Source: Rubripirellula amarantea (lineage in GTDB: Bacteria > Planctomycetota > Planctomycetia > Pirellulales > Pirellulaceae). From it: a DNA stretch of 64,000 nucleotides. This document shows positions 37,801-61,625 of this stretch, piece by piece. The stretch is taken from positions 1 through 64,000 of the forward strand of contig NZ_SJPI01000004.1 in NCBI RefSeq assembly GCF_007859865.1, given 5' to 3'. The position numbers were made by a program, and so were the translations under genes. A model generated the notes under the pieces. It was given only the letters and a program-made list of their open reading frames with translations, was not told the DNA's origin and did no database searches. The first letter of the stretch is position 1. Each line of letters starts with the position of its first letter.

Positions 37801-37816
37801 TGCAAATCTGGTGCCG
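37801..37816 (-). promoter_or_regulatory. Sigma-54 promoter of nhaA
   Basis: Minus strand CGGCAC-CAGAT-TTGCA matches TGGCAC-N5-TTGCA at 10 of 11 defined positions. It lies 50 bp upstream of the nhaA ATG. Confidence 0.8.
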
Positions 37817-37996
37817 ATACCGTTCATTTTCAAATTGCTGCAGATTCGCAACCAAGAAAGGAAACCTGCGTTGACGGTGTCTACCACAGGTGACGCTATT
37901 GAGCCGATCCGCAAGAAGACGAGCGAGACGGAAATGAGGAACGCCACGCTGCCGTTTCATTCTTCGAATTGGAAATTAAGCAACTCTCGTTGACCC

Positions 37997-39019
37997 TCAT
38001 TTGCATTCGGAAAGCTGGTGAATCGTCGCGACTGCTTCACTGACAATTCTATCCACCACGTCACTCGCGGTCGCGACGTCTTTCACCTGTCCGGTCACCT
38101 GACCGGCATACATGGCCAACTTGTGGAGTTCGCCGGTCATGGACTTTAGCGGTGAGTCGGTGCTTCTGAAATACACGGGACGACCTTCCTCTTCCGCAAT
38201 CTGTTCACGCGGCTCAATCCTTTCGCCATGCCCAAAGGGCTCAGACTCAATTCCTTGCGTCGCCTCGCTCTTCAAAACCCTTACGGGTGAATGAGGCGGC
38301 CAGTTAATGGTGAATGCATCCGTATGAATGGTATCGCCGGCGTTTGCGTCCAAAACTCTACGCTTGTGGATGTCGTGAGCAAAGGATTCCACGGTGGCAA
38401 GAAAGGCGGTTCCACAGTGGATGCCTTGTGCACCTAAAGCAAGCGCGGCGACCAAGCTACGACCACTTGCAAAACCTCCCGAACCAACCACTGGTACTGA
38501 AACAGCGTCCACTATCTCAGGCACTAACACCAGAGACGATACGACGCCATGCACGTGCCCGCCTGCTTCGACTCCCTGTGCGACAATCACGTCCGCGCCA
38601 CTGGCTTCGGCAAGGACCGCTTGCTCGACGCTTCCGACTTGATGGATGACACAGCATCCCGCATCCTTGGCTCGTCGAACCGCGCCGGGCACCACATCCC
38701 AAAAGAACACCAAATTTGGCACTTGAAGCCGTATGCACTCGTCGAGTTCTGCATCGAAAAGTTCACTCTGGGTTGCTGCCGGAATCAGATTCACGGCAAA
38801 CGGCTGGTCTGTCAGGGAGCGAACCTGGTGAACTTGTTGTCGAATCTTCTCGGGTGACTCTCGCACCATCCCTAAGCAGCCAAAGGCACCCGCCTGCGAA
38901 ACTGCTGCTGCCAACTCGGCTCGCGCCACGCCACCCATCCCCGCTTGAAGAATCGGGAAACGGCACCCCAACCGTTCGCAGAGCGGTGTAAAGAGATCAG
39001 AGAACTTCGCCACGATCAT
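37997..39019 (-). CDS. Nitronate monooxygenase-family flavoprotein
   Basis: A 340-residue FMN-dependent TIM-barrel protein. QAGMGGVARAELAAAVSQAGAFGCLG (about 24-49), GVEAGGHVHG (about 150) and VVGSGGFASGRSLVAALALGAQGIHCGTAFLATVES carry the FMN-phosphate and catalytic-His region of the NMO (2-nitropropane dioxygenase) family. It probably oxidises alkyl nitronates or reduces an enoyl-type substrate; class I versus FabK-like cannot be settled by eye. Divergent from the small DUF542 gene, with 21 bp between them. Confidence 0.88.
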   Translation of the reverse strand: MIVAKFSDLFTPLCERLGCRFPILQAGMGGVARAELAAAVSQAGAFGCLGMVRESPEKIRQQVHQVRSLTDQPFAVNLIPAATQSELFDAELDECIRLQVPNLVFFWDVVPGAVRRAKDAGCCVIHQVGSVEQAVLAEASGADVIVAQGVEAGGHVHGVVSSLVLVPEIVDAVSVPVVGSGGFASGRSLVAALALGAQGIHCGTAFLATVESFAHDIHKRRVLDANAGDTIHTDAFTINWPPHSPVRVLKSEATQGIESEPFGHGERIEPREQIAEEEGRPVYFRSTDSPLKSMTGELHKLAMYAGQVTGQVKDVATASDVVDRIVSEAVATIHQLSECK

Positions 39020-39040
39020 TCACTCAGCTAACATGAAGGG

Positions 39041-39307
39041 ATGAATTGCGACTTAGACACCAGCATTCCTGATTGGATCATCGAACACCCTGAAACGTCT
39101 CGCATTTTTCTCGAATTGGAACTTGATACCAGTTGCGGAGGAAAGTCGCTTTCGTATCTATGTATTCACAAGGACTTAGATCCCACCGTCGTTCTACGCC
39201 ACCTGCGACAAGTGATCGCTGTCAGTGAGAACGGCAAACGTAGCCTTGATGGAAGCGCTAAGCGAAATTTCAACGCAACTAAAGACGACAGCTCGGATCG
39301 GTTCTAA
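39041..39307 (+). CDS. Stand-alone DUF542 (ScdA/RIC N-terminal-like) protein
   Basis: An 88-residue protein whose first 60 residues, IPDWIIEHPETSRIFLELELDTSCGGKSLSYLCIHKDLDP, match the N-terminal domain of iron-sulfur repair proteins (RIC/ScdA/YtfE). The usual CCGG is reduced to SCGG. The hemerythrin-like di-iron half is absent. The stand-alone form is known in other bacteria; the role could be redox or metal sensing. GAAGGG touches the ATG directly, an unusually short ribosome-site spacing. A 14-bp repeat array follows downstream. Confidence 0.7.
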   Translation: MNCDLDTSIPDWIIEHPETSRIFLELELDTSCGGKSLSYLCIHKDLDPTVVLRHLRQVIAVSENGKRSLDGSAKRNFNATKDDSSDRF

Positions 39308-39331
39308 GCCGAAACAGTTCTACTCTTGCAA

Positions 39332-39394
39332 CACTACATCGTGATCACTACATCGTGGTCACTTAGTCGTGATCACTTAGTTGTGATCACTAAG
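39332..39394. repeat. 14-bp tandem repeat, 4.5 copies, each with a GTGRTCAC core
   Basis: CACTACATCGTGAT (39332-39345), CACTACATCGTGGT, CACTTAGTCGTGAT, CACTTAGTTGTGAT (to 39387) and a partial CACTAAG (to 39394). The junctions create GTGATCAC, or GTGGTCAC once. The palindromic core recurs every 14 bp. Confidence 0.95.
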
Positions 39395-39566
39395 AATGTC
39401 GTTGCCTATGACGATCATACCGTCGAAACGGATCACGACCTAGATCCTCGATGGCGACAACCGGGGTTACCGTATCGCACCTTGAGTTGTCACTTCTTAG
39501 GGTAATCCTCAACTCCTAGCACCAAAACAACCCACTCTACGCGTCTGAGCATGAATTCCAGGCCCG

Positions 39567-39582
39567 CGGCACACTTGTTGCA
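39567..39582 (+). promoter_or_regulatory. Sigma-54 promoter of small membrane protein gene
   Basis: CGGCAC-ACTTG-TTGCA matches the -24/-12 consensus at 10 of 11 defined positions. It ends 57 bp upstream of the ATG at 39640. Confidence 0.85.
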
Positions 39583-39639
39583 TCTCTTCGTTATGCACCG
39601 CAGGGGTACAAACCAAAGTCGTCCAAAGGAGCCATTAAC

Positions 39640-39837
39640 ATGCTAATGCGAAATCCCGATTACGCCGCCGATGCGAGCGTGTCTATCGACAAACTGCACG
39701 AGACCACTGCGGATGCGCCCACCGGCACCGGAGCTTCGCAAGACAAGAATGAATATTCATCTCGCGAGATTCTCTTCGGGCAAATTGTCTTGGCGTTGCT
39801 ATTTGTAATCGCAATCTTGCTGCGATGGTCGACTTAA
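39640..39837 (+). CDS. Small single-pass membrane protein (stress regulon member)
   Basis: A 65-residue protein: about 42 polar residues, then one C-terminal membrane helix (ILFGQIVLALLFVIAILL) ending RWST. AAAGGA lies 9 bp upstream of the ATG, and a -24/-12 promoter lies 57 bp upstream, so it is a real gene. No family is recognised. The polar-N, hydrophobic-C layout resembles the small protein at 44286, which has the same kind of promoter and ribosome site. The next two frames lie on the same strand and may be co-transcribed. Confidence 0.75.
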   Translation: MLMRNPDYAADASVSIDKLHETTADAPTGTGASQDKNEYSSREILFGQIVLALLFVIAILLRWST

Positions 39838-39864
39838 TCAGGTTCGATCACGGATGCTCGATGA

Positions 39865-40296
39865 GTGCGTGACATTGATCGATCGGCGAATGCATGGATG
39901 GAAGCGATGCACTACTACAGATGCGACCTACAAAAGCAGTGGATCAACGACTATCGCGTCGCGTTCACTCGCGGCACTCATCATTTGATTCGAAACATCT
40001 CGATCGACTTCAATGCGAACGAGATTTTCGTTCGCGGCGATGCTCGAACTTACTATGCCGCACAGTTCGCAATACACACGGCCAAGACGCTCGGCTCGCG
40101 ACACCATCGTTTCCCTGACACCGCCCTCTTGCTTCGCGTTCAAGACCAGTTGCTCGACGTATGCGTTCGACAACGCGTTGACCGCGATACATCGCTTTGC
40201 GTTGTTCGATTGGTGAAGTTGAACCTTCGCGACACGACTGTGGCGGCATTCCGTTCGTTTAACAATTCTATCAGTCAAATTCATCAAACCAATTGA
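39865..40296 (+). CDS. Uncertain BON-domain-like protein
   Basis: A 143-residue frame starting with GTG, with Met options near 39898. The segment RNISIDFNANEIFVRGDARTYYAAQFAIHTAKTLG resembles one BON-type repeat as found in short planctomycete BON proteins (strand, G, then helix). A minus-strand frame (39928-40407) competes and also has a membrane-like start, so the call is tentative. If real, it sits between the sigma-54-driven small protein and the Rnk-like gene in one operon. Confidence 0.4.
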   Translation: MRDIDRSANAWMEAMHYYRCDLQKQWINDYRVAFTRGTHHLIRNISIDFNANEIFVRGDARTYYAAQFAIHTAKTLGSRHHRFPDTALLLRVQDQLLDVCVRQRVDRDTSLCVVRLVKLNLRDTTVAAFRSFNNSISQIHQTN

Positions 40297-40312
40297 GGCG
40301 TAGGTCACTCCC

Positions 40313-40729
40313 ATGACAAAAAAGAAGACGATTACTGTTACGAGCGAAGATCGTGAGCGTCTCGAACGACTTTTCGTCAGTTCGCTTGCTGCTGCTTTCT
40401 TGGACAAACCTTACCTGAATGATTTGAGGCAGGAACTAGAACAAGCCAACGTAGTGGGTCGAGGGGAAGTTCCTGCTGATGTTGTCACGATGAATTCGAC
40501 GGTTGTCATCAAAGACATGAAAAGCAAAGAAACGGAGACGTTCACGCTGGTGTATCCAGATGAAGCAAACATCGCTGACGGAAGATTGTCGATCTTGGCT
40601 CCCTTGGGAATCGCGATTCTCGGCTATCGCGTTGGGGACACGATTCGTTGGAAGATTCCCAACGGTGAAGGTCGTTGGCGAGTTGAACGAATTGTCTATC
40701 AGCCTGAACGAGAAGGGATTCCCGCCTAG
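40313..40729 (+). CDS. rnk: Rnk/GreA-C-terminal-like regulator of RNA polymerase
   Basis: A 138-residue protein with an N-terminal helix pair (ERLERLFVSSLAAAFLDKPYLNDLRQELEQANVV) and a GreA/GreB C-terminal-like beta domain (VTMNSTVVIKDMKSKETETFTLVYPDEANIADGRLSILAPLGIAILGYRVGDTIRW). This is the Rnk family, which binds RNA polymerase and competes with Gre factors. It probably adjusts transcription under stress. The ribosome site is weak. It precedes the hibernation-factor-like gene by 109 bp on the same strand, which fits a growth-arrest role. Confidence 0.9.
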   Translation: MTKKKTITVTSEDRERLERLFVSSLAAAFLDKPYLNDLRQELEQANVVGRGEVPADVVTMNSTVVIKDMKSKETETFTLVYPDEANIADGRLSILAPLGIAILGYRVGDTIRWKIPNGEGRWRVERIVYQPEREGIPA

Positions 40730-40838
40730 AATTCCCGAATCATTGGTCACGAAAAACAACGCCAACATTGTCATTAAGACGTAGAATAGTAAGTATCCGT
40801 TTCTGGTTTGGTCCCACCTCTTTTTTGGAGAGTGTTTG

Positions 40839-41195
40839 ATGAAGATTTCAGTCACAACGTCGATGAACCAACTCAGTTCGCAAGCTCGTGATTCCGCGGA
40901 ACGAATGCTAAGGAGCACGCTTGCTAGATTCACTGAAAAGATTGCTCAGGTATCGGTTCTCATAGATGACGAGAATGGACCTCGCGGCGGCGTCGACAAG
41001 CATTGTCGCGTTAACGTGTTGATGCCAGGCGTCGGCGTTGTCACCACATCGGCGCGACACGAAAAAGTTCTGGCTGCGGTCAGCGAGGCGGCACGTCGCG
41101 CACGGCGGATAGTCGTTTCGAAAACGAAGCGTCCACAATCGCTGCGAATGCGTCGCCGCTCACATCACAATCAACATGCTCCTCAAGTTGATTGA
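40839..41195 (+). CDS. HPF/RaiA-type ribosome hibernation factor-like protein
   Basis: A 118-residue protein starting at the ATG at 40839 (GGAGAG, 6 bp upstream; a TTG three bases earlier is not needed). MKISVTTSMNQLSSQARDSAERMLRSTLARFTEKIAQVSVLIDDENGPRGGVDKHCRVNV fits the beta-alpha-beta HPF fold that binds the ribosome A and P sites. The conserved basic C-terminal tail (RARRIVVSKTKRPQSLRMRRRSHH) is unusually long. It likely inactivates ribosomes during energy shortage. No sigma-54 site was seen just upstream. Confidence 0.88.
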   Translation: MKISVTTSMNQLSSQARDSAERMLRSTLARFTEKIAQVSVLIDDENGPRGGVDKHCRVNVLMPGVGVVTTSARHEKVLAAVSEAARRARRIVVSKTKRPQSLRMRRRSHHNQHAPQVD

Positions 41196-41209
41196 GCGTT
41201 GATGAACGC

Positions 41210-42643
41210 TTAGCGAAAGTCGCTGGCATTGATATCGTGGCGTTTCAGTAATTTGTTTAGCCCCTGACGCGACAGTCCGGCTTGACGTGCAGCGCTCGCG
41301 ATGACGCCGCCATGTTTCTTCAATAGCGCCGTGAGATAGGTTCGATCGGCGCTGTCGAGTGCCTCGTCTCTAGAGATCTCTGAAATGTCCAACTCAGCAT
41401 GTGATCGACGGTCATAATTACGCAGTTGCGAAGGCAAATCTCCCACTTCGATCTCGGCTCCGCGTGCCAGCGTAAGCGTTCGCTCGATTACATTTCGCAG
41501 CTCACGAATGTTTCCGGGCCAGTGGTATCGCCGAAAGCAATCCAAGGTTTCCTCTGAAAATCCAATGACGGGCGAGTCCTTGGGACGCAGTCGTTGAAGA
41601 AAGTGATTCGCCAATAACAACACGTCGTCACCTCGTTCGCGCAGCGGTGCGAGCTCGATGTGAATCACCGCCAAGCGGTAAAACAAGTCCTGGCGAAAGC
41701 GTCCGGCATCTACTTCCGCCTGCAGGTCGCGATTCGTTGCGCAAATGAAGCGAGTGTCTACCTTGACGGCTTTGCTGTCCCCCAACGGTGTGAAAGTTTG
41801 CTCCTGGACCGCACGCAATAGCTTTGCTTGGGACGTAGCTGGCAATTCACCCAATTCGTCTAGGAAAGCGGTGCCGTGATCACAATAACGCAGCAGACCT
41901 TGTTGATCACTCGCCGCACCGGTAAAGGATCCCTTCACATGCCCAAACAGCACAGACTCAAATAGTGATTCAGGAATCGCGGTGCAATCGATAACCTGAA
42001 ATGCATTATTAGATCTTGGCCCATTGTCATGAATGACCTTGGCAATCACTTCCTTTCCGGTACCGCTTTCTCCGGTGAGCAGAACGTTGGTGTTGCTTGC
42101 GGCTACCCGATCGACAATGTCCATCAACCGAAGCATGGGATCACTTTGCCCAATGATCTCGGGAAACCGATTCTGAGATTGGCTAGGCTTGGCCGCCGTC
42201 GTAGCCTCTGTAGATGCCGCCACAGGTCTTTCGATGGCGCGCTCGATCGCCGTGAGTAGTTCGTCAAACTTGACGGGCTTAAGCAAGTAGTCAGCAATTC
42301 CAAGCCGAACGCTTTCGATCGCACTGGGGATGGACGGAACCCCGGTGACCACGATCATCGGAATGTGCGAATACTTCGTACGGCCTTCCTTTAACAGTTC
42401 GAGCTTCAAGTTCCCGGGCATGTTCAAGTCGGTAAGAATCAGATCGAACGAGTGGCCGCGAAGCACTTCAACGGCATCGGAAGCATCCTCAACACAAACG
42501 CAATCAAACCCCTCATCGCGAAGTAGTTCAGCAGTTGTGTTTCGATACAGAGGCTCGTCATCTGCAATGAGAATGCGATGAGGACGAGCGTTGTCGGATA
42601 GCTTGTTCATTGTTCGATCTATGCCTGAAGGTTTCGATGACAT
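41210..42643 (-). CDS. NtrC-family sigma-54-dependent response regulator
   Basis: A 477-residue activator. Residues about 20-140 form a receiver (ADDEPLYRN; phospho-Asp in [10 protein letters not shown]). The AAA+ domain has GESGTGKE (Walker A), GSFTGA in place of GAFTGA (the sigma-54 contact loop, Ala to Ser), LDELGELP (Walker B) and the GNIRELRN sensor II. A Fis-type helix-turn-helix ends the protein ([20 protein letters not shown]). It follows the PAS kinase gene by 36 bp on the same strand. It is the only sigma-54 activator in the window and lies among the genes with -24/-12 promoters. Confidence 0.95.
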
Positions 42644-42679
42644 CCTACGAGGGTCTATTTAGAGACGACAATCCATAGC

Positions 42680-43927
42680 TCACGCTAATCGTCTCGGCAG
42701 TGTCACTGTGAACCGGGTGCCTTTTCCAACTTCACTTGTCACCTTCACCGATCCGCTCATCGCCTCGATGATGCTGCGTGATACAGACAGCCCTAACCCC
42801 ATGCCCTGACCCACTGTTTCAGTCTTGGTGCTAAAGAAGGGATCGAAAATCTGGTCTAAATGTTCGGCGGCAATCCCGTGCCCTTCGTCAGAAACGTCGA
42901 CGAGGACATGATTCTTTCTTGTCTCGATTGCGACGCTCACCAGTTGCCCTGGCTTGGACGCCTGCATCGCATTGTGAATCAAGTTCAACAAAACTTGCTT
43001 TAACTCGCCCTCTCTCAATACTACTTCGCTTCCGCTCAAATCCTGGTCCGCTTTTAACTTCTCAAACGCCGTTATCACTTTTACCCCCGTTTTGCGAGAT
43101 AGAGGTTGGGAAAGGGCGATGACCTCTTCAATCGTTTGACAAATCGAAAATCGCGTCGCAGTCTGCTGGCTGGGCCGATAGAGCTGGTACATCTGGTGAG
43201 TGATTCCACTGATACGATCAATTTCACGATCGATGAGTTCGAATTTTTCGAAATGCCGTACTTCAGCAGGCAGGTGACGCCTAATCAACAGCAATGCGTT
43301 GCGAATTCCAGCCAAGGGATTATTGATTTCGTGGGCGACACCGGCCGCCAATTCACCGAGCGCCGCAAGCTGTTGCATCTTTGACCGATGCTTCTCTAAT
43401 TCGGCGACACGTGCCGTTCGTTCCTGAACCAACTGTTCCAAGTGTTCATTGTGCAATCGCAATTGCTCACGTAATGCGCGACGATCGGCGATGTCGCGAA
43501 CGCTAGTCCGATAACCTAGCGAACGGCCGTTCGCGTCCGTCATCGGACGCCAGGAAACCGCGACCCATCGATGTGATCCATCGCGATGCAATACTTTAAA
43601 CTCGATATTGTTCCCGGAGCTGCCGCTAGCCATTTGCTCCACATACTCAGCCATCCGTGCATGGTCCGATTCATCTATCACCCGGTACGGGTAATCTTCC
43701 ATCTTCAAGCACTCTTCTGCTGTGTAGCCAGTGAACCGTTCGACCGCCGAGTTCACCCAAAGTAGTTTGCCGTTGCTTCCGTGCCAGCTTTCCCAGTCGT
43801 AAGTACACTCCGCGATCGCACGAAAGTACTCGGGGTCGATCTCTTCGGATTTCATGGACTCCTGCTTTGGCATCGGCTCGGAATTGTTCAAAGGGTTCGC
43901 ACAGTCGGTGGATTGGGTCTGTTTCAT
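42680..43927 (-). CDS. PAS-domain sensor histidine kinase
   Basis: A 415-residue soluble kinase. One PAS/PAC domain (about 30-155) is followed by a coiled coil, then a HisKA-like box ELAAGVAHEINNPLAGI (phospho-His at about residue 193) and an ATPase domain (LIHNAMQA, DEGHGI, GMGLGLSVS). The NtrB-like HisKA form (AAGVAHEINNPL) fits pairing with an NtrC-type partner, encoded immediately downstream. With no membrane segments, it senses something internal, perhaps redox or oxygen via PAS, although no heme-binding His can be assigned. Confidence 0.95.
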   Translation of the reverse strand: MKQTQSTDCANPLNNSEPMPKQESMKSEEIDPEYFRAIAECTYDWESWHGSNGKLLWVNSAVERFTGYTAEECLKMEDYPYRVIDESDHARMAEYVEQMASGSSGNNIEFKVLHRDGSHRWVAVSWRPMTDANGRSLGYRTSVRDIADRRALREQLRLHNEHLEQLVQERTARVAELEKHRSKMQQLAALGELAAGVAHEINNPLAGIRNALLLIRRHLPAEVRHFEKFELIDREIDRISGITHQMYQLYRPSQQTATRFSICQTIEEVIALSQPLSRKTGVKVITAFEKLKADQDLSGSEVVLREGELKQVLLNLIHNAMQASKPGQLVSVAIETRKNHVLVDVSDEGHGIAAEHLDQIFDPFFSTKTETVGQGMGLGLSVSRSIIEAMSGSVKVTSEVGKGTRFTVTLPRRLA

Positions 43928-44285
43928 CCTTTCATTCTATTGGCACAGCGGCACTGGCCATAAGCCGATCCACGTACTTTCGATCGTCCATGGGCGGAAA
44001 CTTTGCCAAGGTTCTACGCATTCAATATGCCTTGCAGCGAACGACAACGCCCGTTTACGCAGCGGAAACCCTGGTTGACGCGAAGCAACGCGATGTACCG
44101 CGAGAATGATCAAAATCGCCGGAAATCCTCCGTATTATTGCATTTGAATGGAGTTGATACCATTCCGGCCCAATGGTTGCACCGCTTGTGGTTCAGTCGA
44201 AGCGAGATGGCAAACGCGTTAAGCAGTACACAACGAAATTGAACACGTTTCCTTTCGCGATCCGCTCAATGCAAAGGAGCACCCG
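43928..44285. promoter_or_regulatory. Divergent regulatory region
   Basis: About 360 bp between the kinase operon and the small membrane protein gene. It holds the sigma-54 promoter at 44166-44181. Plus-strand frames (43867-44109, 44003-44242) lack ribosome sites and are rejected. Confidence 0.5.
44166..44181 (+). promoter_or_regulatory. Sigma-54 promoter of small membrane protein gene (44286)
   Basis: CGGCCC-AATGG-TTGCA; the -12 element is perfect and the -24 element keeps the GG. It ends 104 bp upstream of the ATG at 44286. Confidence 0.7.
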
Positions 44286-44591
44286 ATGATTTCGTTGCTG
44301 ATCGTTCCACCCTACTGCGATTCACTCGATCGAGATACGAAGGCTCACGAAAATCAGCCGCCGCGTCGAGATCATGTGCTTGCTTCCAGTTCTCGTTTTG
44401 CTAATCAAACTGCAAAGCAAGACAACGGTAACTCAAATCGAGACGAAGAACGCTACCTTCTTCGGATTCTAATTCCGCTCTTTTTGTTGTCCGTCATTCC
44501 GTTGTTGGTGGTGTCCGCTATTCTCTGGCTGAACCCTGACGCGTTCATGTATCAGTTTGGTCCCGAAAGCCATCCTGATCTTGGTAAGTGA
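44286..44591 (+). CDS. Small single-pass membrane protein
   Basis: A 101-residue protein. About 55 charged and polar residues (ENQPPRRDHVLASSSRF..) precede one membrane helix (ILIPLFLLSVIPLLVVSAILWL) and a short tail. AAAGGAG lies 7 bp before the ATG, and a sigma-54 promoter lies upstream. It shares its layout with the protein at 39640 but little sequence. No known family. It is probably a regulon member acting at the inner membrane. Confidence 0.72.
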   Translation: MISLLIVPPYCDSLDRDTKAHENQPPRRDHVLASSSRFANQTAKQDNGNSNRDEERYLLRILIPLFLLSVIPLLVVSAILWLNPDAFMYQFGPESHPDLGK

Positions 44592-44664
44592 TAGATGGAC
44601 AACGTGCCGCCGACAATGCAGCGTGTCGTTTGCCGGACGGACCAGTTTTGGTCAATAGCTCAGC

Positions 44665-46017
44665 CTACAACATTCGCCGAACATCCGACGCGAATGTAGG
44701 GAAAGCGAACAATGTTGATTTCATATCCGTTGCGGTAAGTCCGTGTTTCATTGCCAGTGCAAACAGGTTGATCGTCTCCTGCGACGCAGGCCCAAGTAAA
44801 TGTGCTCCGACAATGAGATCACTTTCTTTGTCGATGATCACTTTGTACCCCGCGACCATCGTCCCCAGTTTGCGGACGGATCCCCAGGTCGATGTATCGT
44901 CAAAGCGTACATTGACATCGGCCGAGCTTTTCTCGGCTTGTTCTTCCGACAACCCAACGGATGCAATCGAAGGTGTGGTAAAGGCAACCTTGGCAACCGG
45001 GCCGTAATCGGGAATCGCTTGCAGATTACCTGATTGCAGATTCTTCGATACGATGCGAGCTTCTTCGTTGGCCACCGGAGTCAACCGCGGCATGTCGCTG
45101 GCGGCGCAATCGCCAGTAGCAAACACATTCGGGTTAGACGTGCTGCGCATGTACTTGTCTACCTTGATCCCGTCCCGGTCATGATCAATATCGGCGCGCC
45201 CTAGATTCAGACTTGAAATGTTTGGCACCCGACCAGCACCGTGAACAACAAGCCCCACGTCCATAACATCGCCATTGTCTAAAGAAACACGAAACGCCCC
45301 GTCGGAAAGCTTATCGATCTGGTTCACTTCACAATCTGTGTGAAATTCAAGACCTTGCGATTTGGAGTACTCCACAAGCATAGCGACGAGGTCGGGGTCG
45401 AAACCGGAAAGAACAGATTTACCGCGTTCCACCACGATGACTCGGCGGCCGGTGCGAGCGACAACGTGCGCGAACTCCATGGACACGTATCCTCCTCCAA
45501 TGAAGAGCAGTTCGCCCGGAAGCTCGGACAGATCCAAAAATTCGTCGCTAAGAATGGCATGTTCGCTACCTGAAAATTCCAGCGGTGCCGGCATCGCTCC
45601 AGTTGCAATTAGGATGCGATCTGCAGTCAGCTTTTCTTGACCCACCTCTAAATGGGTAGATCCTGTGAACTTTGCTGCGCCATGAAACGTCGCTATACCC
45701 GCTTCACGAAATGAAGCTTCGCTTTCTTTGACGACAGGTTCGGTAAAGGTACGCTTGAATGACTGCAGCAATGACCAGTCAATTTCAACGTTCGCTTCCG
45801 CGATCAACTTCCCACTCGCGCTTCGGACTCCATTGACGAGTGATCCGGCATTTGTAAATACCTTTTTGGGATTGCAACCTCGCAATGCGCACGTGCCACC
45901 AAACTCACGTGCTTCAACGATAGCCACGCGATGTCCAGCCTTGGCACTTTTTTTGGCAACCGTTCCGCCGGATGGCCCCGTACCTAGGACTACTACATCG
46001 AAATGTTGTACAGCCAT
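44665..46017 (-). CDS. Glutathione/mercuric reductase-like NAD(P)-flavoprotein
   Basis: A 450-residue FAD-dependent disulfide-reductase-family protein. GTGPSGGTVA (FAD loop), the redox pair CALRGC (43-48) in EFGGTCALRGCNPKKVF, GGGYVSMEFA (NAD(P) loop) and VFATGDCAAS are present. The C-terminal interface segment reads TLFAFPTFASD, whereas true glutathione or mercuric reductases have HPT with the active-site His; that His seems to be missing. It may accept a different partner or act as an NADPH oxidase. It lies in the stress island, 113 bp from the AhpD-like gene. Confidence 0.85.
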   Translation of the reverse strand: MAVQHFDVVVLGTGPSGGTVAKKSAKAGHRVAIVEAREFGGTCALRGCNPKKVFTNAGSLVNGVRSASGKLIAEANVEIDWSLLQSFKRTFTEPVVKESEASFREAGIATFHGAAKFTGSTHLEVGQEKLTADRILIATGAMPAPLEFSGSEHAILSDEFLDLSELPGELLFIGGGYVSMEFAHVVARTGRRVIVVERGKSVLSGFDPDLVAMLVEYSKSQGLEFHTDCEVNQIDKLSDGAFRVSLDNGDVMDVGLVVHGAGRVPNISSLNLGRADIDHDRDGIKVDKYMRSTSNPNVFATGDCAASDMPRLTPVANEEARIVSKNLQSGNLQAIPDYGPVAKVAFTTPSIASVGLSEEQAEKSSADVNVRFDDTSTWGSVRKLGTMVAGYKVIIDKESDLIVGAHLLGPASQETINLFALAMKHGLTATDMKSTLFAFPTFASDVRRML

Positions 46018-46130
46018 GATGGACTTCTAGTAGCTTTCGCTAAATGACGTTGATCGAGTTCTCTCGACGAATAGAAATGCAATGATGCTTCAGGGGTTCA
46101 AGCGATGACGACTAGCATAGAAACCTTGCC

Positions 46131-48166: not shown

Positions 48167-48346
48167 TCAAAGACGCTTTAGACCGGGTCGATCAGCGGCC
48201 ATTACATAGATGGCATGAAGTACACCAGGCACAAATCCTAAGACCGTTAGAACACAGTTGATCCAAAAGTGTTTGCTGAGTCCAAACTGCATGTACACGG
48301 AGACGGGTGGTACAAGAAAGGCGATCAACAGTCGTATGAAGTCCAT
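48167..48346 (-). CDS. YqaE/Pmp3-family membrane protein
   Basis: A 59-residue protein: MDFIRLLIAFLVPPVSVYMQ, a short loop with a W, then NCVLTVLGFVPGVLHAIYVM and a basic tail. The PPVxVY and GxxPGxxHAxY motifs are the Pmp3/YqaE (UPF0057) signature. Family members are stress-induced two-helix membrane peptides linked to membrane potential and cation balance. It falls below a 60-residue gene-calling limit and is easily missed. A -24/-12 promoter lies 72 bp upstream of its ATG, between mscS and this gene, so it has its own control. Confidence 0.92.
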   Translation of the reverse strand: MDFIRLLIAFLVPPVSVYMQFGLSKHFWINCVLTVLGFVPGVLHAIYVMAADRPGLKRL

Positions 48347-48417: not shown

Positions 48418-48433
48418 CGCAATTGGCATACCA
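48418..48433 (-). promoter_or_regulatory. Sigma-54 promoter of the YqaE-like gene
   Basis: Minus strand TGGTAT-GCCAA-TTGCG; both GG and GC dinucleotides are correctly spaced. It is 72 bp upstream of the ATG at 48346. Confidence 0.72.
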
Positions 48434-49674: not shown

Positions 49675-50004
49675 AAAAGACCTGACATGTCGTGATGGAC
49701 GGAGTGACTTGGCAGAACTCCGTTATGCATTAGCATGCTGGACTTCTGTCAACACGCGTCTATCGCGAATGGCATGCCGCTGAAAGATGGCGTCTACGCA
49801 GGCCGCCATTAGCCCATCCACTGAACGGCAGTCAGCCAACGTGGAGGATCTTAGGCCAGTTCCTCACTTTAACACGCGAGCGGGGTGCATCCTGGTTGGA
49901 CGCTAACATTCGCCCGAGTGATGGTCGCCGACGAGAAATCCTTGATCCCTTGAGGGGTAAGGTGATTGAGTTAGCTCGATCTCGCTACATCAATTGTCAC
50001 GCAT
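49675..50004. other. Intergenic, with a weak sigma-54-like site
   Basis: About 330 bp. Minus strand CGGCAT-GCCAT-TCGCG at 49764-49779 has GG and GC spaced correctly, but the -12 box is TCGC rather than TTGC. No gene seen. Confidence 0.4.
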
Positions 50005-51615: not shown

Positions 51616-51662
51616 CTGAATCTCGCTTGAAAGAGGAAGCGTGTTGTTTCCAAACCGTTCAA

Positions 51663-51678
51663 CGCAAATTGGATGCCG
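51663..51678 (-). promoter_or_regulatory. Sigma-54 promoter of the baeRF3 gene
   Basis: Minus strand CGGCAT-CCAAT-TTGCG, 48 bp upstream of the ATG at 51615. GG and GC are correctly spaced. Confidence 0.75.
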
Positions 51679-51748
51679 ATAATCGAGTCAATCGAACTGC
51701 CCAGCATTCATCTGCGGCACAAGAAATTTGCTCGCAGGACAAGAACGC

Positions 51749-53034: not shown

Positions 53035-54600
53035 CTAGTGGCCCCACGTCAGCGATGACGGAAAAAAGATCATCGCAATGCCGAGAGCAAGAATCACGAC
53101 TCCGCTAATCAGTTTTAGCCAACGTCCTTCGCGTTCTTGCAACTTGCGATGAGAAAGAGTTGCCACGACGATGGTCAACAAGAACGCGTCGTCGAGCATG
53201 TAGGCAGCGATGTACAACGCGAGATACGCGTAGTTCTGCCACGCGGGCAAACCATGCAGGGTTAAAATTTGAGTGTAAAGCGCGGGAAGTCCCGCCGTGC
53301 ACAGCAACTCCACCGTATTGACGACAACGGCTAGCACCACAGCACCTCCGACCGCCACGCTTAGGTACTTAGCCTCCACGATCTTCCTGACTCGCCGGTA
53401 TAGCCCCGGCTTTTGACTTTCAGGTATCGAAAAAGAAATCCCTTTTTTGAAGGCGAAGAAATCTTTTACATTCACGATTCCGATCAGCAAAGCAAAAACG
53501 CCAAGTATGACCTGGACAGGACGAGCAATCCCGATCAACAAAAAGACGTTCAACCATGTTGCCATGAACGCGTAGTAAGCCAACCCGCTGACGACGACAA
53601 ACGTGCCGGCAATAAGAATGATTTTGCGACGGTCTTTAATGTTGACTAAGACCGATAGCAGGAACACCAACACCCACATCGCGCAAGGGTTAAATCCGTC
53701 AACGATTCCCACCGCGAAGGTAAACAGGGGCAATCCCAAGTCATCCACGCGCAATCGACCCAATACGGGAACATCAATCACTTCTTCCGGCATCGCCTCC
53801 TGCTGTGTCACTGATTCCACAGATGCGATGCCTATATCATCCTCGTTCGCTTCATCGGGCAATTCGAAATCGAACTCAGGTTCATCGTCCTGCATGGGAA
53901 GGTTGGCAAAATGCAACATCGTCGACGAAGCTGTCGATTCCCCGTCTGGTTGAACATTGCTCCGTTGGATCAACTGTTCGATCTGAATCCCCGTAATGTC
54001 GTCACCTTGGAAACCGACGATCACGTGCCCGGCTAGATCAAAGGTAGGCAATCCCGGAACACTACCACCGGCATGGCACAAGGCTTGCCAACGAGCACGA
54101 GCTAAATCATCACTTCCGACATCCGATATCCGAAAACGAATGGCTGGCCAACGCGGTTGCAGCCGCGAAAGAAATTGCTTTGCGTCTGCACATCGCGGGC
54201 ACGTATTTCGTGTGTAGACGTCGGCGGTAAATAGTCCTTCGATCGCAGGCCCACTTTCGGCCGCACTTTGAAATCCGAAGTAGACGCGGTCCAAGCAGTA
54301 AAAAGCTGGAACGCTGGGTTTGTCGCGTCCAGCCTTCTTACTAATTTTGTAAAGCCGGGCGAGTTGCGGGCGTTCCTTGACAACATCATGAACAACAACG
54401 TCCAACCCGGGAACACGGCGGGCGAGATCCTCAACATACCGTTCGACGGTTCGCGTCGATGGAAGATCACCACGAACGAATACCTCCATGAATACCACGT
54501 TGACATCCGGATTCGCGACGGGCGGATCCTGAGCAAGAACGCCCGGACCCCACACCATCATCATTAGGATACTTGCGAGCGGGATTAGCTTTGGAAACAT
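53035..54600 (-). CDS. Thioredoxin-fold/CcdA-like membrane fusion protein
   Basis: A 521-residue protein starting at 54600 (MFPKLIPLASILMMMVWGPGVLA signal). Residues about 30-230 are periplasmic, with a glutaredoxin-like CPRC motif (TADVYTRNTCPRCADAKQFL). An acidic linker follows (DDEPEFDFELPDEANEDD). The C-terminal half has about seven membrane segments of the CcdA/DsbD type, with DGFNPCAMWVLVFLLSVLV and VVNTVELLCTAGLPALY holding the paired transmembrane Cys. It likely carries electrons from the cytosol across the membrane to periplasmic thiols. The P-type ATPase is divergent, and both carry sigma-54 promoters. Confidence 0.85.
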   Translation of the reverse strand: MFPKLIPLASILMMMVWGPGVLAQDPPVANPDVNVVFMEVFVRGDLPSTRTVERYVEDLARRVPGLDVVVHDVVKERPQLARLYKISKKAGRDKPSVPAFYCLDRVYFGFQSAAESGPAIEGLFTADVYTRNTCPRCADAKQFLSRLQPRWPAIRFRISDVGSDDLARARWQALCHAGGSVPGLPTFDLAGHVIVGFQGDDITGIQIEQLIQRSNVQPDGESTASSTMLHFANLPMQDDEPEFDFELPDEANEDDIGIASVESVTQQEAMPEEVIDVPVLGRLRVDDLGLPLFTFAVGIVDGFNPCAMWVLVFLLSVLVNIKDRRKIILIAGTFVVVSGLAYYAFMATWLNVFLLIGIARPVQVILGVFALLIGIVNVKDFFAFKKGISFSIPESQKPGLYRRVRKIVEAKYLSVAVGGAVVLAVVVNTVELLCTAGLPALYTQILTLHGLPAWQNYAYLALYIAAYMLDDAFLLTIVVATLSHRKLQEREGRWLKLISGVVILALGIAMIFFPSSLTWGH

Positions 54601-54661
54601 GTCGTTGACGATGATCAGGTGGATGCGGAACACGGACCGATGTCCAATGTGGGGTGACTTT

Positions 54662-54677
54662 CGCAACCGGTATGCCA
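54662..54677 (-). promoter_or_regulatory. Sigma-54 promoter of the CcdA-fusion gene
   Basis: Minus strand TGGCAT-ACCGG-TTGCG, 62 bp upstream of the ATG at 54600; one mismatch in the -24 box. Confidence 0.8.
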
Positions 54678-54801
54678 GTCGATGCATTGCCAGTAGGGTT
54701 AAACAGTCGCAGTCTCATGCGAATGCGGGTCTGGTTGATTTACCTGATGATGATGCAGTTCGAATTTTCAAAACTGCGGTTCGTACAGAGTCCTGCTGTT
54801 T

Positions 54802-54818
54802 GTGCAAATGATTGGCAC
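54802..54818. promoter_or_regulatory. Palindrome between divergent sigma-54 promoters
   Basis: GTGC (54802-54805), nine bases, GCAC (54815-54818). It is about 125 bp from the -24 box of each promoter, a usual distance for a sigma-54 activator site. Candidate only. Confidence 0.4.
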
Positions 54819-54930
54819 GTTGATCGGACTGAGCCAATCCGCTCGCTTTACTGTGCGAACGATGCAAGACTTTGGGGCGAACTATGTCTCGGCTTCGCGA
54901 TAGGGCGACTCCGACAAGCCACAGCTTGCT

Positions 54931-54946
54931 TGGCATTGCAATTGCA
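54931..54946 (+). promoter_or_regulatory. Sigma-54 promoter of the P-type ATPase gene
   Basis: TGGCAT-TGCAA-TTGCA, one mismatch to consensus, ending 87 bp upstream of the ATG at 55034. Confidence 0.82.
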
Positions 54947-55033
54947 TCGCACACCCATGCGACAGCACCTTTGAAACGCATCCCTGATCCGGTGAGCTGC
55001 ACCGCAGACTTCCATCAATCTGATTCGCTGGCA

Positions 55034-57721: not shown

Positions 57722-57782
57722 CGATTCAAGCTTGCAGTGGGGAAATCACCGCAAAGAGTTTGCAATCGAGCCGGTGCGGTGA

Positions 57783-58829
57783 CTAAGTCTTTAGATGTCC
57801 AAACGAGTCCCCTCGATTGATGTCCGCGACGGGAGTCGGATCGAAATAGTGATTCGAGCGAGATAGCGGATCGACGTATTCCAACCGCATCAAACGCTCG
57901 GGACCAAGTTCGACCTTTGGCCTAGCTTTCAAGAAACTTTGAAGCGAATCGAAACGGCTGGTGTCGAGGAAGCGGGCAATTGCGGTCGAGATCTTTCGGA
58001 TAGCGTCAGGTCCCTCTCGGTAGATCTCCGAAGTCACCATCACAACGTCCGCGCCAGCAATCATGCTCTTGATCGCGTCTTCTCCGGTCCGCACACCACC
58101 ACTGGCGGCAATCGACATGCCCAGTCCATTGGTTCGGGCACGAACAATGCCTTCCAGGATGCTGCCCAACGAATCAGTCGGTGAAAGCTCCCAACGAATC
58201 GTCCAGTGCATGCGATCAATACTAACGTCCCAGTGAGGCACGTGGGTGAACAGCACCAACCCTTTCGCACCACAAGTTTTCATTTGATGAGCGATCGCCG
58301 CTAGGTTTGTAAACCGTTGATTCAACTTAACGGCGACCGGAATCGTCACACTTGCGCATAACTTGTGCACAATATCGCACAACTTTGATTCAACCTCAGC
58401 AGCAGGTTCGTCAGGATTCGTGATGATGGGTTGCCAGTTCAGTTCCAAAGCATCCGCACCGCTCGATTCTATTTGCTTTGCAAAGTCCAGCCACTTTCCA
58501 GACGCACCTCCGTTGATACTTGCGATGATGGGAACAGATTCACGTTGCTTCAATAGCTCAAGGGTCTTGAGATAGCAATCAACGCCACCATTGTACTTAT
58601 CCTGCTGAGGCTGATATCCGCTTTGCTCAATTGCAGCCATCGGATCGCTCGCTTGAAGCTGCTGGTGAACGATCTGCTCTTGCAGTATCGAGGGCAAGAC
58701 GATTGCACCAGCTCCGGCGAGAACGAATTGGCGAACCGATTCAGGAGACATCGTGAGCGGACAGGATCCGACGATCACAGGTGAATCCAATTGAAGACCC
58801 AGGTAATTGGCCGATAGTTCAGAGGACAT
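57783..58829 (-). CDS. Dihydroorotate-dehydrogenase-like flavoprotein
   Basis: A 348-residue TIM barrel started at the ATG at 58829; the longer frame to 58889 crosses the sigma-54 promoter. NYLGLQLDSPVIVGSCPLTMSPESVRQFVLAGAGAIVLPSILQEQI is typical of 'dihydroorotate dehydrogenase-like' proteins, which cluster with PEP synthase and fermentative enzymes rather than with pyrimidine genes. IASINGG, NWQPI, IPVAVKLNQRFTN and AASGGVRTGEDAIKSMIAGADVVMVTSEIYREG supply the FMN site. Its exact reaction is unknown. It lies beside ppsA with its own promoter and may be linked to anaerobic metabolism. Confidence 0.87.
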   Translation of the reverse strand: MSSELSANYLGLQLDSPVIVGSCPLTMSPESVRQFVLAGAGAIVLPSILQEQIVHQQLQASDPMAAIEQSGYQPQQDKYNGGVDCYLKTLELLKQRESVPIIASINGGASGKWLDFAKQIESSGADALELNWQPIITNPDEPAAEVESKLCDIVHKLCASVTIPVAVKLNQRFTNLAAIAHQMKTCGAKGLVLFTHVPHWDVSIDRMHWTIRWELSPTDSLGSILEGIVRARTNGLGMSIAASGGVRTGEDAIKSMIAGADVVMVTSEIYREGPDAIRKISTAIARFLDTSRFDSLQSFLKARPKVELGPERLMRLEYVDPLSRSNHYFDPTPVADINRGDSFGHLKT

Positions 58830-58870
58830 GACAACACCGCTTGTAAAAGATTCGTACAAACACCGACAGA

Positions 58871-58886
58871 TGCAATCGCCGTTCCG
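58871..58886 (-). promoter_or_regulatory. Sigma-54 promoter of the DHOD-like gene
   Basis: Minus strand CGGAAC-GGCGA-TTGCA. The -12 box is perfect and the -24 box keeps GG. It is 42 bp upstream of the ATG at 58829. Confidence 0.75.
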
Positions 58887-59001
58887 CAAAGCCTCGTCTG
58901 TTCAATTTGATGAAAACCGACGTCCATTGGTGTCAGTCCCACCGCGCTCAATCGACTGCATCCAAAATTGCGAAGACGTGCTTTCGAGACTAAACCGCGA
59001 A

Positions 59002-61425
59002 CTAAACGGCACTGCGTTCCACGTCCAAAACCTGCAGTGTGGTTTTAAGAATCGCGTCCGGTGTAAGCGAAATGCTGTCGATGCCCTGCTGGACCAGAAA
59101 CTCTGCAAAGTCGGGATAGTCGCTCGGCGCTTGTCCGCAAATGCCAATTTTGACATTGTGAATCTTGGCGGTTTGGATGACTGATGCGATCAAGCGTTTG
59201 ACTGCGTCGTTGCGCTCATCGAAAACGTGTGCAACAATGGCGGAGTCGCGGTCCACGCCGAGAGTAAGTTGTGTCAGGTCATTAGAACCGATCGAAAATC
59301 CGTCGAATATCTCAGCAAACTGATCCGCCAAGATCACGTTGCTGGGAATTTCGCACATGACATAAAATTCTAAGCCGTCTTGTCCGCGGACCAGATCGTA
59401 CTTGGCCATCTCTTCCTGGACTTTGCGGCCTTCTTCAACCGTACGACAAAATGGAATCATCAGCTTAACGTTCTTCAACCCCATCTGGTTGCGAACCTTG
59501 TGCATGGCCTTGCATTCGAGGCCGAACGCATCTCGAAATGATTCATCGTAGTATCGAGACGCGCCACGAAAACCAAGCATAGGATTCTCTTCGTGCGGTT
59601 CGTACGCTGCACCGCCGATCAGGTTCGCATACTCGTTCGTCTTAAAATCACTGAGCCGTACAATTACATCGTTGGGTGCAAACGCCGCAGCAATCAACCC
59701 AACGCCTTCGGCAAGACGGTCAATGTAGAATTGTGGTTTGTTGTCGTAGCCCAGCGTTGCCTCGTCGACTTGCCGGCGAGTTGCCCCGTCCAATTTGTCG
59801 TAGTCAAGCAAGGCTTGGGGGTGGACCTTCACGTACGTGCTGATGATGAACTCTTCACGAGCAAGCCCCACGCCGTCGTTGGGAATGGCGGCTAGCGAGA
59901 ACGCTTCGTCGGGCGAACCGACGTTCATCATCATCTTGGTTCTTGGTCGCTGCATTCCGGTTGCGTCGATTGTTTCGACATCAAATGCTAATTCACCTTC
60001 GTAGACGACACCTTCGTCCCCCTCGGCGCAGTTGATCGTGACGATCTGACCGTCTTGCAAACGATCTGTCGCATGAATGGTTCCCACGATCGCCGGTAAA
60101 TTCAGTTCACGACTGACGATGGCAGCGTGACAGGTTCGACCACCGCGATTGGTGATGATGCCTGCAGCGCGCTTCATCACGGGTTCCCAGTCGGGGTCAG
60201 TTTTGTCCGTGACCAGGATTTCCCCTTCTTGGAAATCAGCCAACCGTCCCACGTCGTGGACCAAACGCACCGGTCCCGATGCGATGCGTTCACCGACGCT
60301 GCGACCAGTCAAGATTTTCGCCGACGTCTCTTTCAGGTGGTAACGCTCAATCGCCGTCACCTGCTTCCGCGACTGTACCGTTTCCGGTCGAGCTTGCACG
60401 ATAAACAGCTCGCCGGTTTGTCCGTCTTTGGCCCATTCCATATCCATCGGGCAAATGTCACCGCGAAGTTGGCTGTAATGGTCTTCGATTTCGCAGGCCC
60501 ATCGAGCAAGCTGCAGAATATCATCGTCACTCAAAGCAAAACGATTCGCTTGTTCAGGGTCGACCGGCACGTTCTTGGTCATCTTGCTGCCGCCGCAGTC
60601 ATAGATCATTTTCAGTTCTTTGCGACCAATTGCTTTCTTAAGAATCGGACGAAATCCCTGACGAAGCGTCGGCTTGTAAACGTAGTATTCGTCCGGATTC
60701 ACGCTCCCTTGGACGACGTTTTCGCCCAACCCGTATGCAGCGTTGATCAGGACAACGTCGCTGAATCCACTTTCCGTGTCGATAGAAAACATCACGCCTG
60801 AAGTTGCCAAATCTGACCGGACCATCTTTTGAATGCCAATCGACAATGCCACTTGCATTGAATCATAGCCATGACGAGCCCGGTACGAGATTGCGCGATC
60901 GGTAAACAACGAAGCGAAGCAACGTCGACAGGCATCTAGCACCGACGCTTGCCCACGCACGTTCAAGTACGTTTCTTGCTGACCGGCAAAACTGGCATCG
61001 GGCAGATCCTCGGCTGTCGCACTGCTGCGAACCGCCACGTCCGCTAGATGATCTTGTCCTTTGCAAAGGTGGTGATAGGCGTCCGTGATCGCGTGGGACA
61101 GTTCAGCGGGAAGCGGTGTATCGAGAATCATGTGCCGCACAATTTGTCCGTGGTGCTGCAAGCTTCCCACATCGCTGACGTTCATCCCACTAAGAACTTG
61201 TGCGATTTTTTCGTCAAGCCCGGAATCATGCAAGAACGTGCGGTACGCGTCCGCGGTGGTGGCGAAACCGTTGGGGATGCGAACACCGCGGGGCGTCAGT
61301 TGGCGACACATTTCACCAAGTGATGCGTTCTTTCCGCCGACGGTCGAAACGTCAGCCATCGAGATTTGGTCAAACCAGCGAACCAAGTCGGTCGCAGAGG
61401 TGGATGGAACACTAGCAACGCTCAT
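59002..61425 (-). CDS. ppsA: Phosphoenolpyruvate synthase
   Basis: An 807-residue enzyme of normal family length (about 790-870). The N-terminal ATP-grasp (KNASLGEMCRQL, VRSSATAEDLPDASFAGQQETYLNVRG) is followed by the central phospho-His domain with H433 in NRGGRTCHAAIVSRE. The C-terminal TIM barrel (GIGICGQAPSDYPDFAEFLVQQGIDSISLTPDA, catalytic Cys in ICGQ) completes it. It converts pyruvate, ATP and water into PEP, AMP and phosphate; in anaerobic gene sets it may also work in carbon recycling. It has the best sigma-54 promoter of the window, 62 bp upstream. Confidence 0.96.
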   Translation of the reverse strand: MSVASVPSTSATDLVRWFDQISMADVSTVGGKNASLGEMCRQLTPRGVRIPNGFATTADAYRTFLHDSGLDEKIAQVLSGMNVSDVGSLQHHGQIVRHMILDTPLPAELSHAITDAYHHLCKGQDHLADVAVRSSATAEDLPDASFAGQQETYLNVRGQASVLDACRRCFASLFTDRAISYRARHGYDSMQVALSIGIQKMVRSDLATSGVMFSIDTESGFSDVVLINAAYGLGENVVQGSVNPDEYYVYKPTLRQGFRPILKKAIGRKELKMIYDCGGSKMTKNVPVDPEQANRFALSDDDILQLARWACEIEDHYSQLRGDICPMDMEWAKDGQTGELFIVQARPETVQSRKQVTAIERYHLKETSAKILTGRSVGERIASGPVRLVHDVGRLADFQEGEILVTDKTDPDWEPVMKRAAGIITNRGGRTCHAAIVSRELNLPAIVGTIHATDRLQDGQIVTINCAEGDEGVVYEGELAFDVETIDATGMQRPRTKMMMNVGSPDEAFSLAAIPNDGVGLAREEFIISTYVKVHPQALLDYDKLDGATRRQVDEATLGYDNKPQFYIDRLAEGVGLIAAAFAPNDVIVRLSDFKTNEYANLIGGAAYEPHEENPMLGFRGASRYYDESFRDAFGLECKAMHKVRNQMGLKNVKLMIPFCRTVEEGRKVQEEMAKYDLVRGQDGLEFYVMCEIPSNVILADQFAEIFDGFSIGSNDLTQLTLGVDRDSAIVAHVFDERNDAVKRLIASVIQTAKIHNVKIGICGQAPSDYPDFAEFLVQQGIDSISLTPDAILKTTLQVLDVERSAV

Positions 61426-61486
61426 GACTGGTAACTCGCTAAAGAGGAAGACTTGTTATTGGTCGGCTTACTCAAGCGATTTGCAA

Positions 61487-61502
61487 TGCAACCAACGTGC
61501 CA
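61487..61502 (-). promoter_or_regulatory. Sigma-54 promoter of ppsA (consensus)
   Basis: Minus strand TGGCAC-GTTGG-TTGCA, a perfect match at all defined positions, 62 bp upstream of the ppsA ATG. Confidence 0.92.
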
Positions 61503-61540
61503 GCGATCGGAACGATAAGATGGGACCTCTGGCGACGCAA

Positions 61541-61560
61541 TTCGTGCTCATCCGCACGAA
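61541..61560. promoter_or_regulatory. Perfect palindrome, candidate activator site
   Basis: TTCGTGC (61541-61547), six bases, GCACGAA (61554-61560). It lies 39 bp beyond the ppsA -24 box and 50 bp before the 61610 site, so it could serve both directions. Confidence 0.45.
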
Positions 61561-61609
61561 ACCATGAGCCCTGACGCTCATTCATAACTCACATTGCGGG
61601 TATTTTTTG

Positions 61610-61625
61610 ACGGTACACGAAGTGC
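61610..61625 (+). promoter_or_regulatory. Weak sigma-54-like promoter of the CNB/hydrogenase operon
   Basis: CGGTAC-ACGAA-GTGCA has GG and GC 10 bp apart, as required, but three mismatches to consensus. It ends 125 bp upstream of the ATG at 61751. Confidence 0.45.

Follow-up and report, generated by a model that had tools for sequence, protein, structure and literature searches.

Bases 1–64000 of contig C4 of Rubripirellula amarantea (NZ_SJPI01000004.1; hereafter the window; the genome, G000 in our set, comprises 6.95 Mb in 9 contigs) encode a two-component system, made of an NtrC-type activator and a PAS histidine kinase, that lies among eleven predicted sigma-54 (-24/-12) promoters reaching from the Na+/H+ antiporter gene nhaA to ppsA and a hydrogenase-type operon. 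We found that three of these promoters, those of nhaA, of an operon that begins with a gene for a 65-amino-acid (aa) protein and of a gene for a 101-aa protein, are preceded by a doubled 16-bp palindrome, GTCAAC-N4-GTTGAC, the predicted binding site of the activator. A first-pass annotation of this DNA had joined all the promoters into one regulon; sigma-54 control and a role of the local two-component system stand, but one regulon under the local activator does not, the enhancer being present at 3 of 11 promoters. We consider it likely that the region is organised in two layers, a local salt/energy-stress regulon and a larger sigma-54 set that answers to another activator.

The nine -24/-12 sites first listed were all found where they had been placed, and their GG and GC dinucleotides are spaced by 10 bp, in -24/-12 surroundings that occur upstream of genes more often than in the background. 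RpoN itself is encoded at C2:1667420 (PF04552, 213.6 bits). The first-pass annotation had suggested an enrichment check with a weight matrix, which was run against stretches of the same genome, using a 16-position matrix built from the consensus TGGCACG-N4-TTGCW and independent of the window. Counting matches of at least 12 that lie 10–180 bp upstream on the coding strand, we obtained 7 of 24 genes at 36.3–64 kb, with 0 of 24 in the opposite-strand control. A background of 400 kb, taken from the same genome as 20 stretches of 20 kb at even spacing, gave 2 of 280 genes, and 1 of 280 in the opposite-strand control (Fisher 2.5e-7); the remainder of the window gave 1 of 25. We used the first matrix to pick 33 sigma-54-like promoters from other parts of the genome and trained a second matrix on them. 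Under this own-trained matrix the 11 claimed sites score 8.8–18.1 and make up eight of the 12 top matches in the window, those of ppsA, the CcdA-type gene and yqaE being the three highest and those of the 101-aa gene (44166, 8.8) and the hydrogenase side (61611, 11.8) the weakest. On the strength of this enrichment and of the own-trained ranking the sigma-54 sites are confirmed: judged by sequence, the predicted promoters of the region are real and unusually dense. Two sites had been set apart as weaker, which holds for 61611 and not for the mscS site at 49764, with its own-trained score of 14.6. A strict pattern, YGGCAYNNNNNTTGCR, picked after the sites had been seen, matches the genome 67 times, as against 40 for the reversed pattern used as a control, and six of the 67 matches lie within this 24-kb stretch. 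As a caveat, sites 54662, 54931 and 58871 lie inside the longest open reading frames, yet upstream of the starts preferred by the gene caller, which used a simple codon model; with its preferred start the CcdA-type gene is just 29 bp from its site, and a strong match at 54074 is intragenic.

The activator has the architecture of the NtrC type, with a receiver, an AAA+ sigma-54 activation domain and a Fis-type helix-turn-helix (HTH; HTH_8 at 21.7 bits, 0.3 under the cut-off of 22). It also carries a phosphorylatable Asp motif, DLNMP, and a sigma-54 contact loop that reads GSFTGA rather than GAFTGA; in 31 relative regions the loop is GSFTGA in 21 and GAFTGA in seven, and was not found in three. 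The protein falls outside NtrC proper (TIGR01818, NR(I)), scoring 354.3 bits against a cut-off of 558.6. The PAS kinase is its presumed partner. That this is the only NtrC-type activator, as first proposed, is true within the stretch and not genome-wide, since the sigma-54 activation domain matches 19 loci, 17 of these strongly, at 216 bits or more. Orthologues of the activator (at least 46% identity, the next matches being at about 41%) occur in 26 of 100 family genomes, its own counted, with 81% identity in Rhodopirellula sp. SM50, 75% in Stieleria sedimenti, 73% in Aporhodopirellula aestuarii and 65% in Roseiconus nitratireducens, and none in either of two genomes of the same genus. The recognition helix is well conserved among them.

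The palindrome was derived by expectation maximisation from 16 promoter regions of relatives, the window being excluded, after visual inspection of relatives and of the window had revealed the repeat. Its log-likelihood was 60.6, as against 20.2–24.7 for eight sets shuffled in 60-base blocks. It is mostly doubled, with starts 19–22 bp apart, upstream of sigma-54 promoters beside activator orthologues: 20 of 31 regions around such orthologues contain a tandem, which in 17 is accompanied by a suitably placed sigma-54 site. The distance from tandem to -24 box ranges from 43 to 161 bp (n = 26; 23 in relatives and three in the window), 19 of the distances being 43–44, 53–55, 62–66, 75–76 or 86–91 bp and seven spread across 114–161 bp. 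Rayleigh P values of 0.0002–0.01 for periods of 10–12 bp, and of 0.14 for 9.5 bp, suggest periodicity, in sequences that, being related, are not independent.

In the held-out window, we scored the best tandem up to 260 bp from each of the 11 promoters. The nhaA promoter reached 26.2, the 65-aa operon 19.6 and the 101-aa gene 30.2, whereas the other eight stayed at 0.3–4.1; the highest score at the 33 other sigma-54-like promoters of the genome was 16.2, and 0 of 261 of its 500-bp upstream regions held a tandem of at least 15. These three dyads upstream of their promoters are predicted binding sites. The whole genome was also searched with a sequence-only pair model trained on relatives, 150 of 2952 first-look candidates being scored. 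Among those 150, the best places were 44043–44079 (E 0.047) and 37863–37894 (E 0.082), and the best place outside the window had an E of 2.2; the tandem of the 65-aa operon did not appear among the places with an E of 10 or less. By eye, a head-to-tail array of four GTGATCAC-like palindromes, repeating every 14 bp, was seen upstream of that operon, at 39341–39390; they are unrelated to the tandem enhancer.

The clear split in tandem scores bears on the single regulon, in which the local activator would drive all 9–11 promoters, working from solution where good sites are lacking, being made nearby. The sites do crowd round the activator, and enhancer-free action is possible for such proteins at high concentration. 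Besides the split, the neighbourhoods of the activator in relatives argue against it. The relatives supplied 14 regions, ten of which span 40 kb, three 21 kb and one 8 kb. The PAS kinase adjoins the activator or lies close by in all 14, and nearby are also a Rnk/GreA-type gene in 11, the 65-aa protein in six, nhaA in five, the 143-aa protein in three and a 101-aa-type protein in one (also in SM50, G075 and G011 at a looser cut-off). Genes for ppsA, yqaE, baeRF3 and the CcdA and hydrogenase types were near the activator in 0 of these 14 regions, and P-ATPase, DHOD and MscS gave single matches each, at 29–31%. Moreover, sigma-54 sites are present at ppsA, and in the neighbourhood of ppsA/DHOD, in genomes free of the activator. 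Because the tandem is present at 3 of 11 promoters, the right-half genes lie away from the activator and sites occur in activator-free genomes, a single regulon is not supported, and we regard it as quite improbable.

The right half of the region (yqaE, the MscS-type gene, baeRF3, the CcdA-type gene, the P-type ATPase gene, the DHOD-like gene, ppsA and perhaps the hydrogenase-type operon) would form the other layer, part of a larger set of sigma-54 genes for stress and low oxygen that is distributed across several islands, and it probably answers to a different activator in trans. Around ppsA/DHOD, sites of at least 11.5 were found at 9 of 27 and 6 of 21 genes in G037, at 8 of 31 in both G077 and G013, at 5 of 35 and 8 of 20 in G055, and at 2 of 13 and 1 of 15 in G083. 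The activator-free genomes G036 and G087 gave 11 of 39 and 4 of 28 genes, the G036 island holding ppsA, DHOD and hydrogenase-type genes; there were none in G018 (0 of 28) or G097 (0 of 17, twice). In these last two genomes (L210-L211 in G018, L213 in G097), ppsA and hydrogenase-type genes thus form islands in which no gene has a sigma-54 site of that score. The ppsA site lies at -95 to -117 from the start of the match in G055, G037, G077 and activator-free G087; the ppsA loci of G036 and G097 (both) have matches farther off only, and G018 has none.

Could the right-half sites be mostly chance or decayed sequences, just the three enhancer-bearing promoters being at work? The ppsA site recurs at a like distance in just 4 of 8 loci, 61611 is weak, and the ppsA regions of G018 and the two of G097 are without any gene at 11.5 or above. 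Five of the seven genes behind the enrichment lie in the right half, however, the three top own-trained matches in the window are right-half sites and similar site-rich islands occur in several relatives, all of which makes this explanation very unlikely.

Returning to an activator in trans, three of the islands (G055, G013 and G036) contain activators of another family, 63–80% identical. Among the activators of R. amarantea that were compared with them, the nearest is encoded at C2:1492566-1493984 (56–60%), a weak candidate by likeness for the right-half activator; the assignment is weak because the group has two or three members in many genomes. The first candidate, C3:312346-313683, was dropped, its identity to the island activators being 52–54% as against 56–60%. 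A putative right-half motif, TGAGC-N6-GCTCA, was likewise abandoned, as two divergent intergenic regions had been counted twice.

The pair model further pointed to genes for NADP-dependent glutamate dehydrogenase (GDH) in G006 and G091. The GDH subfamily concerned (at least 85% identity) is found in 6 of 15 activator-bearing genomes and in 0 of 13 others searched. All six of its genes have a tandem scoring 18.6–30.3 within 500 bp upstream, four of them with a sigma-54 site, and none of ten other GDHs, that of R. amarantea included, has a tandem score above 13.8. GDH sites were absent from the training of the matrix used here; the G037 GDH site is in the later model. In the 65-aa gene, the sigma-54 site is constant, scoring 13.8–15.9 in 6 of 6 relatives where an orthologue was found. 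Across the 100 family genomes, tandem matches at E up to 0.5 were obtained in 17 of 26 activator-bearing genomes and 7 of 74 others, or, minus 11 training genomes, in 8 of 15 versus 7 of 74 (Fisher 3e-4). This co-occurrence is weaker than its P value, because four of the eight matches (G003, G023, G038 and G088) lack a usable sigma-54 site and look like chance, G000, G011, G024 and G072 having one. Of the seven activator-free matches, four were inspected; a sigma-54 site is missing at three of them and lies 56 bp away at the fourth, in the fragmented genome G063. A smaller search at the same E gave 9 of 13 activator-bearing genomes versus 0 of 13 others, eight of the nine being training genomes. 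In G013, an 83-aa protein (L247:2261-2509) that resembles, by eye, the HTH of the activator alone adjoins a second copy of the 65-aa gene, which has its own tandem and sigma-54 site.

We propose the following model for the local layer. The PAS kinase would phosphorylate the NtrC-type activator, which would bind the tandem palindromes 43–161 bp upstream of a -24/-12 promoter and, as is usual in its family, drive open-complex formation by RpoN-polymerase. Its targets in R. amarantea would be nhaA, the operon for the 65-aa, 143-aa and Rnk-type proteins, perhaps with the HPF-like gene, and the 101-aa gene, and in relatives it would also serve NADP-GDH. NhaA exports sodium and NADP-GDH synthesises glutamate; RNA polymerase and ribosomes are what the Rnk/GreA- and HPF-type proteins target. 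Sodium/osmotic or related energy stress could thereby be met by sodium export, glutamate supply and adjustment of transcription and ribosomes. In Rhodopirellula baltica, a salt-stress study reports glutamate accumulation and, upon a salt shift, induction of a GDH, RB6930, after 10 min and of a Na+/H+ antiporter after 300 min (PMC2754498). This salt response makes sodium/osmotic or related energy stress the likeliest signal.

Nitrogen status is a real rival: the local system could be an ammonium/glutamate regulator, an analogue of NtrB/NtrC with nhaA as a side target. In its favour, the genes of one GDH subfamily have the element upstream in 6 of 6 genomes, and the local pair combines a PAS kinase with an activator of NtrC architecture. 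The targets in the window, though, are nhaA, the small membrane proteins and the Rnk operon, the GDH of R. amarantea is without the element and the activator scores far below the NtrC cut-off, so that we consider this alternative unlikely and prefer salt or related energy stress as the signal.

Several points weigh against the two-layer reading. The whole case is computational. No tandem was found in 11 of the 31 activator-orthologue regions, and nhaA is not targeted constantly, the tandem exceeding 15 at 2 of 15 loci, own included. Near the activator, the 101-aa-type gene of SM50 has a tandem with a weak sigma-54 site (9.4), and no sigma-54 site was found at that of Stieleria. Two of the six subfamily GDHs have a tandem and no sigma-54 site scoring at least 9, and in R. 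amarantea itself the element is absent upstream of the GDH gene. For the right half, sets of 33, 39, 44 and 53 promoters yielded no consistent enhancer motif, and the comparison with the island activators covered just 6 of the 17 found in the genome. Finally, in the same study of R. baltica, rpoN decreases under salt (PMC2754498).

The features of the window are collected in Table 1. The frame 39928-40314 (-), which the gene caller had chosen, was dropped, homologues favouring the plus-strand frame of the 143-aa protein. The Rnk-type gene follows the latter after a gap of 16 bp and presumably belongs to the same operon, as possibly does the HPF-like gene, after a gap of about 106 bp, whose product falls short of the S30AE/HPF family. 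The baeRF3 protein, judged by its score against the ribosome hibernation factor family NF052287 (AOC03_06830 family; 131.5 bits against 330, E 5e-38), is a relative of that family and not a member. Two names of the first-pass annotation need qualification: CcdA corresponds to just a sub-threshold glutaredoxin match, and the hydrogenase genes relate to sulfhydrogenase beta subunits, below their cut-offs. The hydrogenase-type operon is linked to the sigma-54 set through a site that is among the weakest two.

Table 1. Genes, -24/-12 promoters and tandem enhancers of the window (promoter scores under the consensus and own-trained matrices; tandem, best tandem score)
Feature	Coordinates	Strand	Details
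nhaA, Na+/H+ antiporter	36396..37751	-	TIGR00773 391.7 bits, cut-off 254
nhaA promoter	37801..37816	-	14.5 consensus, 13.2 own-trained
nhaA tandem enhancer	37860..37894	-	two 16-bp palindromes, 43 bp upstream of -24 box
65-aa operon tandem enhancer	39456..39491	+	75 bp upstream of -24 box
65-aa operon promoter	39567..39582	+	score 15.9
65-aa protein	39640..39837	+	N-terminal MLMRNP, C-terminal hydrophobic segment; no Pfam match
143-aa protein	39865..40296	+	no Pfam match; 27-bp gap, presumed same operon
Rnk-type (GreA C-terminal) protein	40313..40729	+	NF004396 126.7 bits, cut-off 109
Weakly HPF/S30AE-like protein	40839..41195	+	PF02482 20.5 bits, cut-off 23.7
NtrC-type activator	41210..42643	-	Pfam Response_reg, Sigma54_activat, AAA_lid_14
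PAS sensor histidine kinase	42680..43927	-	Pfam PAS, HisKA, HATPase_c
101-aa gene tandem enhancer	44043..44079	+	86 bp upstream of -24 box
101-aa gene promoter	44166..44181	+	12.6 consensus, 8.8 own-trained
101-aa protein	44286..44591	+	C-terminal hydrophobic segment; no confident Pfam match
yqaE, Pmp3 family	48167-48346		Pmp3 73.4 bits
yqaE promoter	48418..48433	-	10.9 consensus, 16.7 own-trained; tandem 2.4, no local enhancer
MscS-type gene promoter	49764..49779	-	7.2 consensus, 14.6 own-trained; tandem 1.2, no local enhancer
baeRF3 promoter	51663..51678	-	9.3 consensus, 12.9 own-trained; tandem 2.8, no local enhancer
CcdA-type gene promoter	54662..54677	-	13.3 consensus, 17.9 own-trained; tandem 0.3, no local enhancer
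P-type ATPase promoter	54931..54946	+	15.3 consensus, 15.1 own-trained; tandem 0.3, no local enhancer
DHOD-like gene promoter	58871..58886	-	12.5 consensus, 12.6 own-trained; tandem 4.1, no local enhancer
ppsA promoter	61487..61502	-	19.6 consensus, 18.1 own-trained; tandem 2.8, no local enhancer
cNMP/hydrogenase-type operon, weak site	61611..61626	+	9.9 consensus, 11.8 own-trained; tandem 1.1, no local enhancer

Other clusters of sigma-54 sites in the genome were compared using matches of at least 11 in a wider distance window (-60 to 250 bp), all chosen for their pattern matches except the 60 kb following the window, which gave 4 of 50 genes. C1:1.845-1.925 Mb, with 21 of 66 genes, is denser than the window region; the others gave 6 of 32 (C1:3.278-3.318 Mb), 9 of 43 (C3:310-370 kb), 4 of 49 (C2:965-1025 kb), 5 of 37 (C2:1280-1340 kb), 3 of 20 (C1:2.990-3.010 Mb) and 1 of 14 (C4:225-245 kb). 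The first of these (L035-L038, G000:C1:1845001-1925000) has its own response-regulator activator (L037:8084-9523), itself with a strong site (18.8), and, judged from protein starts alone, the clusters include several CsbD-, ferritin-like-, Hsp20-, Dps- and YqaE-type proteins. It is possible, and we offer it tentatively, that RpoN does much of the work of RpoS/SigB in Pirellulaceae, with genes for stress, dormancy and low oxygen in several sigma-54 islands, of which each branch has its own NtrC-type activator and enhancer. If so, the local module would be one of these branches, in which sodium export, glutamate synthesis and RNA-polymerase/ribosome factors are linked with two small membrane proteins. 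The analysis predicts where an NtrC-type activator from a little-studied phylum binds and which targets could be tested for it; a tempting single regulon is split into two, and the idea of sigma-54 as a broad planctomycete stress sigma factor gains weight.

Regulation by NtrC-type proteins through doubled dyads is well known. Studholme and Dixon (2004) reportedly predicted, in silico, activators and likely targets of Pirellula species strain 1, a work that may overlap with the present finding; among top-ranked literature matches, we found no published description of an enhancer or regulon of this kind. The local system shares with NtrC/NtrB its domain order, a PAS kinase partner and, in relatives, a GDH target, and differs in an activator far under the NtrC model cut-off and probably in its palindrome. 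Sigma-54 predictions for Planctomycetia place MscS, UspA, CsrA and ZraR-type genes under sigma-54; the main text of that study has no match for phosphoenolpyruvate synthase, antiporter, P-type ATPase or upstream activating sequence, names GDH for Bacillota and, by its own statement, does not assign promoters to activators (PMC12316311). Close in design, by architecture and sites, is NmpRSTU of Myxococcus xanthus, which regulates an oxygen-utilisation regulon and in which an NtrC-like response regulator likewise works with doubled dyads upstream of sigma-54 promoters of several operons, a universal stress protein among them; the NmpR consensus is GCGCA-N5-TGCGC with most sites 14–15 bp apart (PMC11841059), whereas here it is GTCAAC-N4-GTTGAC with 3–6 bp between copies.

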